From Rhizobium favelukesii (lineage in GTDB: Bacteria > Pseudomonadota > Alphaproteobacteria > Rhizobiales > Rhizobiaceae), in NCBI RefSeq assembly GCF_000577275.2, contig NZ_HG916855.1, positions 1,426,001 to 1,490,000 on the forward strand: a stretch of 64,000 nucleotides of DNA, given 5' to 3'. The notes beneath the pieces are model-generated. The model saw nothing but the letters and a program-made list of their open reading frames with translations. It did no database searches and had not been told where the DNA came from. Numbering within the stretch: the stretch's first letter is position 1; each line of letters opens with the position of its first letter. Both the position numbers and the translations under genes were made by a program. Shown piece by piece: positions 50,329 through 56,262 of the stretch.

Positions 50329-50338
50329 GTCCGAGATG
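50329..50338. repeat. left copy of a 10-bp direct repeat flanking the IS21 element
   Basis: GTCCGAGATG occurs here and again, in the same orientation, at 56253-56262, directly outside the terminal repeats of the IS21-family element. It is the likely target-site duplication, although IS21 duplications are usually 4-8 bases, so part of the match may be chance. Confidence 0.55.
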
Positions 50339-50340
50339 CC

Positions 50341-50411
50341 GATTCCGATGAAGCCGCCCCTTTGTTCCGAGATGATTGCGCCCCCGGATTCCGGGATGAT
50401 CTCGCCCCCTT
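50341..50411. repeat. left terminal multiple repeats of the IS21 element
   Basis: Three imperfect copies, each with the pattern TTCCGA/G-GATGA-x-CGCCCC, lie in tandem (starting near 50342, 50364 and 50388). They are inverted relative to the four units at the right end. Such multiple terminal repeats are IstA binding sites. Confidence 0.75.
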
Positions 50412-50463
50412 GAGGCTGGGGTCCTGCTGGCTGTGATTGTTGTCAGTTCATTCGTGTAACGAG

Positions 50464-51201
50464 TCAAGATTTCCGGCGCTGATTTCGCCGCAAGCTTTCG
50501 CCGGATAGGTCGATGCGGTGGGCGTTGTGAACGAGGCGATCGAGGATGGCATCGGCGTAGGTTGGGTTGCCGATGATCTCGTGCCAGGCTGATACCGGAA
50601 GCTGGCTGGTGATAATCGTCGAGCGGCGTCCGTAGCGATCTTCGAGGATCTCCAGGAGGTCGTGGCGTGCCTGCTCATTGAGCGGTTCCAGACCCCAGTC
50701 ATCAAGGATCAAGAGCTGGACGTGGCCGAGGGTTCGCTGCAGCCTTGCATAGCGGCCGTCGCCGTGGGCAAGAGCGAGATTGGCAAACAAGCGTGGCACG
50801 CGTTGATAAAGAACTGAGCGATCGTCGCGGCAGGCCTTGTGCCCGAGTGCACAGGCTAACCAGCTTTTGCCAACGCCAGATGGCCCGCAAATCGCGAGGT
50901 TGTCGTGGGCATCAATCCAGTCGCCGCCGATCAGCTTCATGAACAGCGCACGATCGAGACCGCGGTCGCTGCGGTAATCGACATCCTCAGGCACAGCATG
51001 ATGGCGAAGCTTGGCAAACCGCAGCCGGGCGGCAAGCTTGCGATCGTGGCGCGAACTCCATTCTCGCTCCAGCAGTAGCCCGAGCCATTCGGCATGGGAG
51101 AGTTGTTCGCTCTCACCGTTGGTCAGCAGTTCGTTGAACGCCTTGGCCATGCCAGTCAGGCCCATGGCATTCAATTTATCAAGGGTAGGATGTGCAAGCA
51201 T
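50464..51201 (-). CDS. istB: IS21 family helper ATPase IstB
   Basis: A 245-residue AAA+ ATPase, complete. Walker A is GPSGVGKSWLA (near 105) and Walker B is LLILDDWG (near 165), with an arginine-containing sensor SQLPVSAWHEIIG and the IDLSGESLRR tail. IstB activates IstA and helps target choice. It starts 11 bases after the istA stop, in the usual istA-istB order. Confidence 0.92.
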   Translation of the reverse strand: MLAHPTLDKLNAMGLTGMAKAFNELLTNGESEQLSHAEWLGLLLEREWSSRHDRKLAARLRFAKLRHHAVPEDVDYRSDRGLDRALFMKLIGGDWIDAHDNLAICGPSGVGKSWLACALGHKACRDDRSVLYQRVPRLFANLALAHGDGRYARLQRTLGHVQLLILDDWGLEPLNEQARHDLLEILEDRYGRRSTIITSQLPVSAWHEIIGNPTYADAILDRLVHNAHRIDLSGESLRRNQRRKS

Positions 51202-51212
51202 ATGTCGTCTCC

Positions 51213-51995
51213 TCAGTGGTAATAGCGGGGACCGCGGATGTTGGAGTGGTTGATCGGCTCGGGTGATGATGCGCCTGATGACGCCGACGGTCGGTCAAGG
51301 TGATTGTCGAGAATGGAACGCACCGAGCCATAGGTTCGAGCGCCGATTTCCAATGCCCGGCCGCAGGCTGCATTGACCCTCTCGCGCTCAAACGCTTTGA
51401 CGAGGCGGATAATGCCCAGACAGGCTCTGTAGCCCTGTTCGGGATGCGGTCGATCGGCAAGAATACGCTCGCAGAGCAATGCAACGTCTGAGCCGATCGC
51501 GGAGGCTTCGCGGCTGATACGTTCGATCGTCCAGTCGGCAAAGCGGCGATGCGATGACGGCATGTGCTCGGGCGTTGTCGTGTGCTTGCCATTGCCACTC
51601 GAACGCCTGTGGGCGGCAATCCGCTCACCTTTGTGGAAGATCTCGATGGTATTGGCGGTGATGCGGGCCTCGACCTGCTCACGCGCAAAGCGGTAGGGCA
51701 CCGAGTAATAGTGCTTGTCGATATCGACATGATAATCGAGACCGGCCCTGCGTATCTTCCATTCCGCAAAGACGTATCGTTCCACAGGCAGCGGACGCAG
51801 GGCGGGATAATCCAGCTCTTCGAACAATTGCCGTCGCGTGCGCCCGACGCGACGCAGGACGCGCCTGTCGTTGAGATCAGCGAGCAATTCAGCAATCGCC
51901 GCATTCACGTCGGCAAGGCTGTAAAAGACGCGGTGGCGTAGTCGACCCAGCAGCCAGCGCTCGACAATGCGAACCGCGGCTTCGACCTTCGCCTT
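51213..51995 (-). pseudogene. istA: C-terminal half of disrupted IS21 transposase gene istA
   Basis: This fragment encodes about 260 C-terminal residues of IstA, entering at [16 protein letters not shown] next to the junction and running through [17 protein letters not shown] to the stop at 51213. The other half is at 55309-56080. Joining the halves with one CCTT copy gives an uninterrupted frame of 517 codons, with the junction reading RDKAKV. The last catalytic glutamate of the DDE triad is likely near the junction in this half. Confidence 0.88.
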
Positions 51996-52039
51996 CTTTC
52001 AAGTCCAGGACTGCAGCTCGTGCAACTAGCCAAGCGCGC

Positions 52040-52303
52040 ATAGAGTTTGAAGTAACGCACCCCTTTCATCCCTGGCGTGGCCAGCGTTTCGTTCTGGCGA
52101 CGCGCAAGCAGAATTGGGGCGAAGACCGCGTCATGTTCTATGACGTTCAAGGACGACTGCGTTCGCTGCCGGCCTCGTGGACGGATGTCGATGAGATCGA
52201 CGCATTCCGCCAGATAGCCGCAGGTCGGTCCTTCTCGCGCCCAGACGATCTGTCGGCGCTGGCGTCATTGATTGCTCACATCAAGGACCACCATGGAGAT
52301 TGA
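52040..52303 (+). CDS. DUF5372-like small protein of the mobile unit
   Basis: A reading frame of about 88 codons ends at TGA 52301-52303 and contains EVTHPFHPWRGQRF, NWGEDRVMFYD and RLRSLPASWTDV, which match DUF5372 proteins found beside such recombinases. There is no ATG, GTG or TTG in frame from the element edge to the first conserved residue (52049); the start I give (ATA 52040) is only the approximate limit. The first in-frame ATG is about 30 codons inside. It either uses a non-standard start, was trimmed at the element edge, or is decaying. Function unknown; possibly a regulator or directionality factor. Confidence 0.6.
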   Translation: MEFEVTHPFHPWRGQRFVLATRKQNWGEDRVMFYDVQGRLRSLPASWTDVDEIDAFRQIAAGRSFSRPDDLSALASLIAHIKDHHGD

Positions 52304-52309
52304 AGATGC

Positions 52310-52351
52310 GTCAAGTAAATTACGCCGCAAATGTCAAGGTAATTATGCCGC
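52310..52351 (+). repeat. two tandem 19-bp direct repeats upstream of the HTH gene
   Basis: GTCAAGTAAATTACGCCGC (52310-52328) and GTCAAGGTAATTATGCCGC (52333-52351) match at 16 of 19 positions and are spaced by 23 bases, about two helical turns. They lie just after the DUF5372 stop and upstream of the promoter. They could bind the HTH protein, the DUF5372 protein or the recombinase. Confidence 0.55.
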
Positions 52352-52433
52352 GACTACGATGTTTGCGACGGCTTCCTTATGTGAAGTATCATTATAATGC
52401 AAGCGCTTTGGCTAATAGCTCGATATAATTCAA

Positions 52434-52463
52434 TTGACACTAAAGTCGGCAGCGGCATATTTT
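52434..52463 (+). promoter_or_regulatory. sigma-70-type promoter of the HTH-recombinase genes
   Basis: TTGACA (52434-52439) and TATTTT (52458-52463) are separated by 18 bases, 23 bases before the ATG of the HTH gene. The surrounding 100 bases are AT-rich, with another TATAAT at 52424-52429. Confidence 0.55.
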
Positions 52464-52485
52464 ACGTTACATGCAGGAGGCGCCT

Positions 52486-53226
52486 ATGACCAAAGAAAGC
52501 AAGCCCGATCGCCTGCGCCAGATGGGCGCTCTCAACCCCAGACCCGAGGGCGTCCACGCGTCCTGGTTCCGGGAAGCAGGTTTCTTTGATCCGCTCGATC
52601 TCGTGCAAGTGAAGTACGAGATGCTTCGTCACGCCCGCCAAGACGGCACTAACAAAGCCGATGCGGCCGCGCTTTTCGGGCTGTCCCGGCAGACCTATTA
52701 TCAAGCGGAGGCCGCGTTCGAGCGCGATGGCATTGCCGGCCTCTTGCCGCGCACCCGCGGGCCGAAGTCAGCCCACAAGCTTACTGGCGAGGTCATGCGT
52801 CTCGTCGAGGAGCATCTCGATGCGAACGGCCAACTGCAGGCCCGTTCGCTGGCGGAACTGGTGCATTCGAGACTGGGCATCAGCGTCCATCCTCGCAGTA
52901 TCGAACGCGCGGTGGCGCGTAAAAAAAACGATGACGGGCGGACGCACGCAATCACCATGCCGGCGAACGGCAAGGAGATTTACGAAGCGCTCCGCGCCGA
53001 TGTTGTTTGCGGCACGGCTTGCGCAAGGCGGATGGGCGCCATCGTCTTTCACGGACTATGGCGCGGCCTGGCCGTGCTGATCACGCCAGAGCAGTCCACG
53101 ATAGCGCGACAGCAGTCGGCGCCTCGGTCCACGACAACTTCAGTGGTCGCGCACGATCGCCAGCTCGTGCACATGCTCGCCAATATGGTGCTGGCAGCAG
53201 AGACAGGAGGAAGCCATGTCTACTGA
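52486..53226 (+). CDS. helix-turn-helix protein of the mobile unit, fused through an A8 run
   Basis: The 246-residue frame starts at ATG 52486 behind AGGAGG. The first 148 residues are a Fis/homeodomain-like double helix-turn-helix protein (DAAALFGLSRQTYYQAEAAF, LGISVHPRSIERAVARKK). The run AAAAAAAA at 52921-52928 (codons 146-148) then joins it in frame to a second part (from MPANGKEIYEALRA to HMLANMVLAAETGGSHVY) that looks like a separate small protein. With one extra A the first protein would end RKKKR and stop at once. So slippage at A8 could yield a short and a long product, or two genes have been fused by one missing base. The stop overlaps the recombinase start. Confidence 0.75.
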   Translation: MTKESKPDRLRQMGALNPRPEGVHASWFREAGFFDPLDLVQVKYEMLRHARQDGTNKADAAALFGLSRQTYYQAEAAFERDGIAGLLPRTRGPKSAHKLTGEVMRLVEEHLDANGQLQARSLAELVHSRLGISVHPRSIERAVARKKNDDGRTHAITMPANGKEIYEALRADVVCGTACARRMGAIVFHGLWRGLAVLITPEQSTIARQQSAPRSTTTSVVAHDRQLVHMLANMVLAAETGGSHVY

Positions 53227-55300
53227 TAACGCCATGAAGATTAGTGCCGATCACCTGCGGCGCGATGCATTTCTCTACGTCCGCCAGTCCTCCCTTCGTC
53301 AGGTGTTCGAGAACACCGAGAGCACGAAGCGACAATATGCATTGCGGGACAGGGCGGTGGCGCTGGGTTGGCCGATTGAGCGCGTCCACGTCATCGACAA
53401 CGACCTCGGCCTTTCCGGTGCACAGTCGCAGGACCGCGACGGATTTCAGCGCTTGGTGAGCGAGGTCGCGATGGGGCACGCAGGGATCGTGCTGGGACTG
53501 GAAGTATCTCGCCTGGCTCGCAACAATGCTGACTGGCATCGCCTTCTTGAGTTGGCCGCCATGTCGCGCACGCTCATCATGGATGAAGATGGCGTCTACG
53601 ACGCGGCGTCCTTCAACGATCGTATGTTGCTCGGATTGAAGGGCACGATGAGTGAGGCCGAACTGCACATCCTGAAGTCTCGACTGCAAGGTGGCATTCT
53701 TAATAAGGCGCGTCGTGGGGAGCTCGAGTTACCGTTGCCGATCGGATTCGTTTACACGCCTGATACGCGCGTGGTGCTCGATCCGGATCGCCAGATCCAG
53801 GACACGGTGCGCATGCTGTTCGATACCTTCCGGGAGGCGGGCTCAGCTTGTGCGGTCGTGCGCCGCCTGCGTAGCGAGAAGATCCTGTTTCCTCGGCGCA
53901 TTCGGCGCGGTCTCGGCAAGGGTGATGTCCTTTGGAGCGAGATAGACCACTCCCGTCTGCTTCAGATTTTGCACAATCCCCGATACGCTGGCGCTTTCGC
54001 GTACGGACGCACACGCACTGTCTACAATGCCAAGCTGAAGTCCGTACAGCAGAAGATGCCGAGGTCCGACTGGCAGGTGCTCATCCCTCAGGCCCACGAA
54101 GGCTATATCTCATGGGATGAGTTCGAGCGTAATCAATCAAGCCTGGAACAAAATGCAGTCGGTTTTTCTCCGGGCCTGCGGGGTCGTATGCCTCGCCAGG
54201 GCAGCGGCTTGTTGCAAGGTCGAGTTTTGTGCGGTCGATGCGGCGCCCGCATGCGGGTCCATTATGAACAGTTCGAGGACAAGCTTCGTCCCTATTACGT
54301 CTGCAACGAGGCCGTCGTTCGTCACGCTGGAAAGACCTGCCAATGGGCAAGAGGACCTGCGATCGATGAAGCGGTCAGCGCGTTGCTGCTTGAAGCAATG
54401 GCACCGACGGCGATAGAAGTCGCGCTGGCGGTACAGCAGGAGATCTCACAACGTGTCGAGCAAGCCGCCTCGCTGCGCGACAAGCAGCTACAGCGCGCCC
54501 GGTATGAGGCTGAACTCGCACGTCGCCGCTATCTGAAGGTCGATCCCGACAACCGCTTGGTTGTCGACGCACTCGAAGCGGACTGGAATGGCAAACTACG
54601 CGACCTCGATGCGCTTCAGCGCGAACATGAGCGTCAAAACGAGACAGACCAGTTATTGTTGAATGGCCCTACGCAGGAACGGATTCGGGCGCTGGCCGCC
54701 GATTTTCCTCGCATCTGGAACCACGAACATACAAGCGCTGTCGAGCGCAAACGCATGCTTGGTCTCCTCATCGAAGACGTGACGCTGCTGGTCGACGAGC
54801 AGATCAACATGCACATACGCTGGCGCGGAGGGCGCACGCAAAGCCTGGCAGTCGCTCGTCCCCGGCCCATGGCAGTGATCCGCAAGACCCCGGAAGCGGT
54901 CGTAGCGTTGATCAACGAACTGCTGGAGACCGACAACGACCAGCAGATTGCCAGTCGTCTCAATACGCTCGGGCATCGTAACTGGCGCGGTGAGCCTTTT
55001 ACGCTGAAGAAGGTCATGCTCGTTCGTCGAGCCTATGGGCTGAAGACCCGGTTCGAACGGTTGCGCGAGAGCGGCATGCTTACCGGCGAGGAAGTCGCCC
55101 GCCAGCTTGGCGTCAGCACCACAACCGTCCACCAACTCGGACGCGATGGCGTTCTCAAGCGCCACCGCTACGCTACCAACCATCGTTACCTGTATGAGCC
55201 TCCAGGCAACGTCAGACTCGCAAAAGGCGTCGGCGGTCGCTATGGTAGCCGCCAACCCCGGTTGATTGGCGCTCAACAAATCCAACAAGGTGCATCGTGA
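53216..55300 (+). CDS. large serine recombinase
   Basis: A 694-residue serine recombinase. The N-terminal resolvase domain has the catalytic S25 in YVRQSS with R23, and the LEVSRLARNNADWHRL arginine motif near 96-110. A recombinase domain follows (about 165-300; VLDPDRQIQDTVRMLF). The zinc ribbon has CGRCG near 336 and two later cysteines in YVCNEA and KTCQW, then a coiled-coil (about 400-470). An extra C-terminal helix-turn-helix (LTGEEVARQLGVSTTTVHQL, near 620-640) is unusual. AGGAGG precedes ATG 53216. It should catalyse integration and excision of the unit. It appears intact. Confidence 0.9.
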   Translation: MSTDNAMKISADHLRRDAFLYVRQSSLRQVFENTESTKRQYALRDRAVALGWPIERVHVIDNDLGLSGAQSQDRDGFQRLVSEVAMGHAGIVLGLEVSRLARNNADWHRLLELAAMSRTLIMDEDGVYDAASFNDRMLLGLKGTMSEAELHILKSRLQGGILNKARRGELELPLPIGFVYTPDTRVVLDPDRQIQDTVRMLFDTFREAGSACAVVRRLRSEKILFPRRIRRGLGKGDVLWSEIDHSRLLQILHNPRYAGAFAYGRTRTVYNAKLKSVQQKMPRSDWQVLIPQAHEGYISWDEFERNQSSLEQNAVGFSPGLRGRMPRQGSGLLQGRVLCGRCGARMRVHYEQFEDKLRPYYVCNEAVVRHAGKTCQWARGPAIDEAVSALLLEAMAPTAIEVALAVQQEISQRVEQAASLRDKQLQRARYEAELARRRYLKVDPDNRLVVDALEADWNGKLRDLDALQREHERQNETDQLLLNGPTQERIRALAADFPRIWNHEHTSAVERKRMLGLLIEDVTLLVDEQINMHIRWRGGRTQSLAVARPRPMAVIRKTPEAVVALINELLETDNDQQIASRLNTLGHRNWRGEPFTLKKVMLVRRAYGLKTRFERLRESGMLTGEEVARQLGVSTTTVHQLGRDGVLKRHRYATNHRYLYEPPGNVRLAKGVGGRYGSRQPRLIGAQQIQQGAS

Positions 55301-55308
55301 TGTCCGCT

Positions 55309-56080
55309 CCTTGTCGCGCGGGCGGCGCGGTCGTGCCGGAAGAACAGCGCTTCCGTAATGAGCCGCCATCCCGGCATAGGTGCGATTGACCTGCGGATCA
55401 AAATGGCAGGCCTTGATGACGGCGACCTTGGCGTTGTCGGGAACCAGCAACGCCGGTGCGCCACCGAACGCCTCAAGCGCAAGCAGGTGACATTCGATCC
55501 AGTCGGGCAACGTTTCGCTCCAGCGAGCATGTGCAAATGAAAGGCTCGATGCGCCGAGCACTGCGACGAACAGGTGGGCTTGCCGCGTCTTTCCCGACAA
55601 TCTGTCGACGACCACCGTGACCGTGTCGCCGGCATAATCGACGAACAGCTTGTCGCCGGCCGCATGGTTTTGGCGCGTTGTCACCGGCAGCTTCAGCGCC
55701 CAGCCGCGATACAAATCACAGTAACGGCTGTAGCGATATCCCTCGGGATGAAGGCCGATATACTCGTCCCAGAGGATCTGCAGCGTCACATGCTTGCGCT
55801 TCAGTTCCCGGTGAACAAGAGCCCAATCCGGCTCAGCGCTGCGGCGATGACCGGTCTTCGTGCCGGCAGCCTTGTAGAGAGCCGCTTCCAACATCGCATC
55901 GCTGACGTCCTCGCCCAACGGCCAGGAAAGCCCAGCAATGTCCACACGGCGCAGCGTCTCACGCACCGTCGACGGCGCCGCACCAACGCGCACCGCAATC
56001 GACTTGTGGCCAAGGCCTTCCTCAAATCTGTATCTCAGTATCTCGCGGACACGCCGCATCTTCAGTCTCTCCGCTGGCAT
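55309..56080 (-). pseudogene. istA: N-terminal half of disrupted IS21 transposase gene istA
   Basis: This fragment starts at ATG 56080 and encodes about 257 residues: an N-terminal helix-turn-helix (LGHKSIAVRVGAAPSTVRE) and the first part of the DDE integrase core, with LFVDYAGDTV and LVPDNAKVAV holding the first two acidic residues. The natural frame ends at the junction (RPRRPRDK); beyond it the frame reads through unrelated recombinase-unit sequence. Its partner is at 51213-51995. Confidence 0.88.
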
Positions 56081-56153
56081 CGCGTTCCTTCCTCTCAGGC
56101 AACTGAAAGGACGAACGTCTCACCAGCAGAACACCCCGACAAACACCCCAATC

Positions 56154-56252
56154 AGAGGGCGGCATCATCTCGGAACAAGGGGGCGGTTAATTCTCGGAAT
56201 TGGGGGGCGGCATTATTTCGGAATGCGGGGGCGGATTGCCTCGGAATCTGCA
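56154..56252. repeat. right terminal multiple repeats of the IS21 element
   Basis: Four imperfect copies of GGGGGCGG-x-ATTAT-x-TCGGAA (roughly 56154, 56178, 56202, 56227) form the right end, inverted relative to the three copies at the left. They are binding sites for IstA and define the element border at about 56252. Confidence 0.78.
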
Positions 56253-56262
56253 GTCCGAGATG
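56253..56262. repeat. right copy of the 10-bp direct repeat flanking IS21
   Basis: GTCCGAGATG, identical to 50329-50338 and in the same orientation. The host sequence from 56263 to 56600 carries no convincing gene and supplies the panC promoter region; the panC ribosome-binding site GGAGGAGG is at its end. Confidence 0.55.

Follow-up and report, generated by a model that had tools for sequence, protein, structure and literature searches.

What is a unit of three open reading frames (ORFs) doing inside a transposase gene, and what decides where such a unit lands? We addressed this question in a 64,000-nucleotide stretch of the Rhizobium favelukesii genome (7.57 Mb), hereafter the window (contig NZ_HG916855.1, C62 in our numbering, positions 1,426,001 to 1,490,000; coordinates below are those of the window), in which a unit of 3317 bp (51994-55312) lies within the istA gene of an IS21 element. 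On the plus strand it encodes a DUF5372 ORF, a helix-turn-helix (HTH) protein and a 694-aa large serine recombinase (LSR). Our analysis argues that the unit is very probably a compact integrative element, inserted by its own recombinase through attP x attB recombination at a TT core, with the DNA for the stretch that ends at the catalytic Glu in DDE (rve-type) transposases serving as attB, with attP lying within the 5′ codons of DUF5372, and with a wider superfamily of related elements around it.

Ends and copies of the unit

The interrupted IS21 element occupies 50337-56252, begins with TGCCGATTCC and ends with TCGGAATCTGCA, and has the same ends in two further copies (loci L009 and L012). 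An 8-bp target duplication, GTCCGAGA, was recognized by eye on its left (50329-50336) and right (56253-56260). Its istB (50464-51201, minus strand; Pfam IstB_IS21, E 1.9e-72) lies next to a split istA on the same strand, whose N-terminal half, up to ...RPRDK, lies at 55313-56080 (rve, E 4.2e-7; 30.6 bits, the cut-off being 32.6) and whose C-terminal half, from the Lys codon of RDK-AKVE onward, lies at 51213-51993 (Mu-transpos_C_2, E 1.8e-21). Excising the unit in silico with one TT kept joined the two halves into one unbroken IstA frame, 516 aa and a stop codon long, which bears out the location inside istA given by a first-pass annotation of the sequence. That annotation had also reported CCTT at both junctions; CCTT is indeed present there in the window copy, but the left junction of another copy (L010) reads CTTT, and TT alone is common to all copies in this genome, so we rejected CCTT as the core and placed attL at 51994-51995 and attR at 55311-55312. 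Its description of three small functions was right in number, with three ORFs with family matches between the ends, but not in size, given the length of the recombinase. The target choice and the division of the DUF5372 gene, which we found the most informative features, had escaped it.

This genome contains five copies of the unit, which share their ends but stand between four different pairs of flanks: the left end reads TT followed by CTTTCAAGTCCAGG, and the right end GATGTC(C/T)GCTCC followed by TT. One copy (L012) sits at the same site in IS21, and two interrupt other genes, encoding a short-chain dehydrogenase (L010) and an ISNCY transposase (L011). Near-identical ends recur in Ensifer and Microvirga and on Sinorhizobium and Rhizobium plasmids, and related ends in Burkholderiales; the laboratory strains S. 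meliloti 1021 and NGR234 also have copies. The empty istA site predicted by the first-pass annotation also exists: of 17 matching plasmid records, 14 show it without interruption across 80% or more of the 240 joined bases, some annotated as istA of ISRel16. The unit thus displays the constant ends, variable flanks, short shared core and uninterrupted attB of LSR elements, and its recombinase (53216-55300, plus strand) has their domain order, with Pfam Resolvase (18-169), Recombinase (196-313) and Zn ribbon (332-391) all above cut-offs. Judged from these sequence comparisons, the unit is a genuine mobile element whose ends are fixed. The earlier proposal of small self-mobile elements that use serine chemistry without phage genes is supported by the consistent borders, differing flanks and empty sites; the variable flanks without consistent borders against which it was to be checked were not what homologous units showed, their different flanks being joined to consistent borders.

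Among 72,556 plasmid records, 559 hold a relative of the recombinase at E <= 1e-5, and in 400 of these the match spans 80% or more of the recombinase; near-identical copies (E <= 1e-250) were found, among 394 genomes of the family, in this genome only. A small contig of the same genome (C28; L008, 3187 bp) carries recombinase pieces crowded on both strands, and contigs L035, L037 and L049 end at the element and are about one element long, perhaps as collapsed repeats.

A DUF5372 gene divided by the attachment site

The DUF5372 gene contains the attachment site, its start codon being on the right end of the unit and its body on the left. The body (51996-52303, plus strand; PF17342, E 4.5e-24 on 52034-52303, 84.7 bits against a Pfam cut-off of 25) has no start codon of its own; the start codon and first codons stand at 55300-55310 on the same strand, where the ATG overlaps the recombinase stop as TGATG. 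Once the ends are joined, the body continues the frame of 55300-55312, giving an ORF of 106 aa. In all 17 representatives, which cover ten target sites and whose ends and cores were set by hand, joining the ends likewise gave a single open frame, with 24-28 residues preceding the first conserved motif although core and end sequences differ, and in the 12 representatives viewed the right-end start codon is preceded by a purine-rich stretch (by eye). The window's DUF5372 ORF contains no ATG, GTG or TTG from the border to the first conserved motif, nor any in frame upstream, and eight of the 17 representatives, the window among them, have neither an internal nor an in-frame flank start codon. DUF5372 is under purifying selection, as judged by a dN of 0.04-0.17 against a dS of 0.18-1.6 between the window and five divergent copies. 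A fold search suggested only a possible match to a common barrel (SH3-like, KOW or Tudor type) and no function.

A rival reading holds that the junction ORF is unused and that integrated DUF5372 is translated from starts in the host flank or within the body. Several of 29 DUF5372 database proteins carry differing, seemingly flank-derived leaders, and because a start codon lies between border and domain in 5 of the 17 representatives and upstream in the flank in 7, some integrated copies might translate DUF5372. This reading must nevertheless accommodate the eight representatives with neither start, the frame kept in all 17, the narrow range of leader lengths and the right-end start codon with its purine-rich stretch, and we consider it unlikely.

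A gene completed by joining the ends remains our preferred interpretation, against which the internal and flank starts weigh together with several other points. The reference motif was hand-chosen in 3 of the 17 representatives, purifying selection is not clearly visible on the 14 leader codons taken by themselves, and 3 of 6 further left-end ORFs fall short of Pfam DUF5372. A natural circle or tandem junction covering 80% of the joined 120 bases was found in 0 of 52 matching plasmid records, an exact 18-mer across it in no viral contig, and the circle junction of another subfamily in 0 of 148 genomes. A transient circle may escape assemblies. The predicted junction peptide was the N-terminus of none of the 29 database proteins read (among the matches listed, 120 of 281). 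With no natural circle junction found, excision rests on the known chemistry of the family and on the empty sites.

Target sites of the family and its relatives

The whole composite of IS21 and unit is present twice in this genome at 99.95% identity, and each place has its own target duplication (GTCCGAGA in the window; TGATCGG at the second), so the composite probably moved as an insertion sequence (IS); alternatively, two identical IS copies were each invaded by the unit. These two composites are also what speaks for regarding the unit as IS21 cargo, that is, as passenger genes spread by the IS and not mobile in themselves. We find this very improbable, as units with the same ends also lie in IS21-like, IS3, ISNCY and dehydrogenase genes, the L012 recombinase is 97% identical where its IS21 flank is only 87% identical, and empty sites exist. 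Hitch-hiking on IS21 is an addition, not the basic mode.

Target choice was examined at 56 loci of the window's family, 43 of which gave both borders and reduced to 25 distinct flank pairs, several loci being one place fetched twice. The other 13 gave no border pair (L146, L150, L160 and L186 a left border only), and the left border of L039 and the right border of L036 were not reliably read. As the core was placed by a search pattern that includes TT, and the frame set so that the core forms codon letters 1-2 (AA), TT and the Lys (22) or Asn (3) codon follow by construction, and the informative positions are the others. At all 25 distinct sites, position +4, counted in codons from the core and in the reading frame that the insertion interrupts, is Glu, and the nine clusters obtained when sites are grouped at 70% identity all share Glu at +4, TC at -12/-11 and G at +9. 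Twenty-three of the 25 joined proteins read as DDE transposases, with the motifs (core codon set off by hyphens) RD-K-AKVE, RD-K-SKVE and KD-K-AKVE in IstA, KT-K-GKVER and RT-K-GKDER in IS21-like proteins, PQA-K-GRVER in ISNCY and PQS-N-GMAEAF in IS3 OrfB; family searches confirmed the types for IstA (L147), IS21-like (L032, L154), IS3 (L030, L149) and ISNCY (L011). The +4 Glu occupies what we take to be the expected place of the third catalytic residue of DDE transposases, and at these 23 sites it fits that residue. Because the Glu is present at every site, and TC and G in all nine clusters, the recombinase most likely recognizes DNA whose conservation is imposed by the protein motif. Burkholderiales relatives (L034, L038, L044, L051; 65-68% identity) also have Glu at +4, and a locus from a deltaproteobacterial bin (L040) fits the Glu-codon site as far as its contig runs.

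Relatives of the recombinase at E <= 1e-100 are present in 51 of the 148 genomes of the genus, this one included, and multiple copies within genomes gave their exact ends. Those with 35-50% identical recombinases occupy other conserved spots, mostly in mobile-element genes. Using tblastn with eight IS proteins, we located both flanks of 12 loci in IS66 TnpB near residue 67 and of 11 loci in IS66 TnpC near 477 (including Novosphingobium, Sphingobium, Paracoccus, Bradyrhizobium and Azoarcus records), with further narrow positions in TnpC near 488-521, TnpB near 48 and IstB near 210; L055, L137 and L068 gave mixed or one-sided matches, and L113, L121 and L122 no useful TnpB match. Four more targets, first read from the flanks and then by family search, were the IstB P-loop (L060; Pfam IstB_IS21), a C-terminal motif of an IS3-type transposase (L139; rve_3), a tyrosine recombinase at LL-LGHTK (L064, with L067 alike; Phage_integrase) and a reverse transcriptase at FDIKG-LFDN, of group II intron type by eye (L126; RVT_1).

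On a recombinase tree of 69 sequences, with 58 rows labelled, eight target states required seven changes, the minimum. Labels were set by hand by group, with L010 as its own state and 11 rows marked ND left out; the group label came without a clean two-flank check for L170, L122, L159, L160, L168, L177, L035, L036, L037, L039 and L040, and the TnpB rows L109, L110, L111, L115 and L120 were seen from a single flank. A later set of 385 genomes of the class, 10 with matches including this genome, added 15 new loci. Seven lie in mobile-element genes, six of them as seen from both flanks: IstB (L205), TnpC (L208, L215), TnpB (L212), an rve-type transposase (L211, second flank by eye) and IS110 (L213), with IstB at L207 seen from one flank. 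A decayed relative with four in-frame stops lies in an IS66 TnpC gene of the R. favelukesii genome (L013, C62:460000-471000, recombinase at 6591-4645; L007).

Some targets lie outside mobile-element genes or are unclear, which counts against the main reading. L010 interrupts the short-chain dehydrogenase gene (K-ASGE; family search), though with Glu at +4, and the joined site of L170 reads K-PSAE with no family match, an istA-like half (by eye) standing beside another sequence. L202 lies in a nucleoside hydrolase gene (family search; K-PQAE by eye) and L058 in a DUF6655 gene (family search), and of the 15 targets added by the later set, six were unreadable and L210 was weak. The latter, taken by eye for an IS630 gene, was rejected as such and counted as weak because the family search gave only rve_2, under its cut-off. 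The flanks of L170 seem not to come from one gene, one being istA-like by eye and the other showing no relation to it, which would fit recombination between two units.

IS are abundant on rhizobial plasmids, and insertions in other genes (L010, L058, L202) would agree with an enzyme of low specificity that hits transposase genes as abundant and harmless to lose. That explanation is hardly tenable when 25 of 25 sites share one homologous position across divergent transposases, each subclade keeps to narrow positions, and even the off-target L010 and L202 retain the +4 Glu codon (L202 by eye). Nor do we give much credence to a degenerate remnant of a larger phage or integrative and conjugative element with only its integration genes kept, for although the recombinase matches PHROG integrases (E 8.2e-54), the same layout and exact ends recur in many copies and genera, some genomes are multi-copy, and the three ORFs with family matches from 51994 to 55312 include no phage, structural or conjugation genes. 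The best reading of these target sequences is a superfamily of serine-integrase elements that appear to parasitize other mobile elements, its subclades directed to different conserved coding motifs, mostly in mobile-element genes.

Known systems, a proposed cycle and further features

Group II introns and homing elements have conserved coding motifs as their homes, often in IS genes, as do the units described here. These units recombine DNA without splicing, unlike group II introns, and the host gene therefore stays disrupted for as long as the unit is present. In phages whose attP lies within a gene, as known from the integration-dependent immunity of mycobacteriophages and from phage Mx8, integration likewise alters the attP-spanning gene; unlike in those phages, the start codon here ends up at the opposite end of the element.

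LSR integrative elements were surveyed by Durrant et al. 2022 (PMC10083194). Like those in the available text of that survey, the units combine Resolvase, Recombinase and Zn-ribbon domains with a short core, attL and attR, an empty attB and targets in coding genes; they differ in their size (~2.6-3.3 kb, with no cargo seen), in their mostly mobile-element targets at conserved motifs and in an attP that splits a gene. The targets named in that text include Mg chelatase, prolyl isomerase and competence genes, and transposases are not among them. Going by the portions available of PMC10111431, the closest elements in concept are helper-embedded phage-inducible chromosomal island (PICI) satellites, in which subclades of an integrase clade each have one site inside another mobile element's genes; those satellites have replication and late zones and sit in prophage late genes, whereas the units here place serine recombinases in IS, intron-type and recombinase genes. 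The IS607 family, as described in the accessible part of PMC4058570, shares serine chemistry and small size, but has an inverted domain order (HTH first, catalytic domain second) and minimal target specificity, in contrast to the N-terminal resolvase domain and high target specificity found here. The chemistry is that of known LSRs. We recognized no description of these elements, and DUF5372 appeared in no paper, in a search whose coverage excluded subscription papers; within the literature searched, the target choice and the split gene are undescribed.

Sequence comparison shows where the borders lie, that empty sites exist, the motif at the target, the open frame of the joined gene and purifying selection on DUF5372; the cycle proposed here goes further. 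The recombinase would excise the unit as a circle, perhaps helped by the HTH protein as a regulator of excision. Circle closure would restore DUF5372, joining its start codon to its body and placing it directly after the recombinase, so that DUF5372 may be made mainly or only from circles. The protein would then favour integration or block renewed excision, acting as a putative switch of directionality or integration, and insertion into an intact gene for a transposase or another mobile-element function would silence that gene and cut DUF5372 again. With attB being the catalytic-Glu DNA of DDE transposases, the unit would land inside other mobile elements and inactivate them. The IS21 composite, with its two target duplications, may also have been moved by IS21 enzymes from elsewhere.

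A more sweeping possibility, which we entertain but do not quite favour, is that these are minimal serine-integrase hyperparasites, each subclade having become specialized in recognizing the DNA of a single motif, catalytic or conserved in some other way, that an entire class of mobile-element enzymes has in common (DDE Glu, IstB P-loop, IS66 TnpB/TnpC, IS110, tyrosine recombinase, intron-type reverse transcriptase), with integration turning hosts off and the split DUF5372 reporting the circular state and driving re-integration. If true, these elements would form a natural class of site-specific integrases that seek out, as a self-renewing home, the best-conserved coding positions of other mobile elements, and that would also act as a brake on transposons; a gene whole only in the circle would be a simple built-in sensor of excision. 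Small elements with recombinases of different, predictable target sites are also on offer, and the rhizobial trio of DUF5372, HTH and recombinase family protein, to which the annotations examined give no function, would gain meaning.

Two features of the unit's other domains deserve mention. The additional C-terminal HTH that the first-pass annotation saw on the recombinase is weakly supported, scoring under the cut-offs of Pfam (22.0 bits against 27.1) and NCBIfam (18 against 28.8), with a PHROG MerR-like match at E 3.8e-4. The HTH protein (52471-53226, plus strand, 251 aa; HTH_28 and others) weakly resembles the DNA-binding region of IS630/IS481 transposases, and in the window copy it is fused with a second ORF: the gene is a single ORF in the window, L150 and L152, and two ORFs in six other annotated copies (L144-L149). 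A run of eight or nine A separates the HTH part from the second ORF in the window (A8, 52921-52928, plus strand), in L010, L030, L034, L036 and L044 (A9), and in L103, L106 and L118. A8 is also present where the ORFs are split (L103, L106), so run length alone is not decisive; the fused window copy beside several split relatives resembles the programmed slippage or frameshifting of IS elements.

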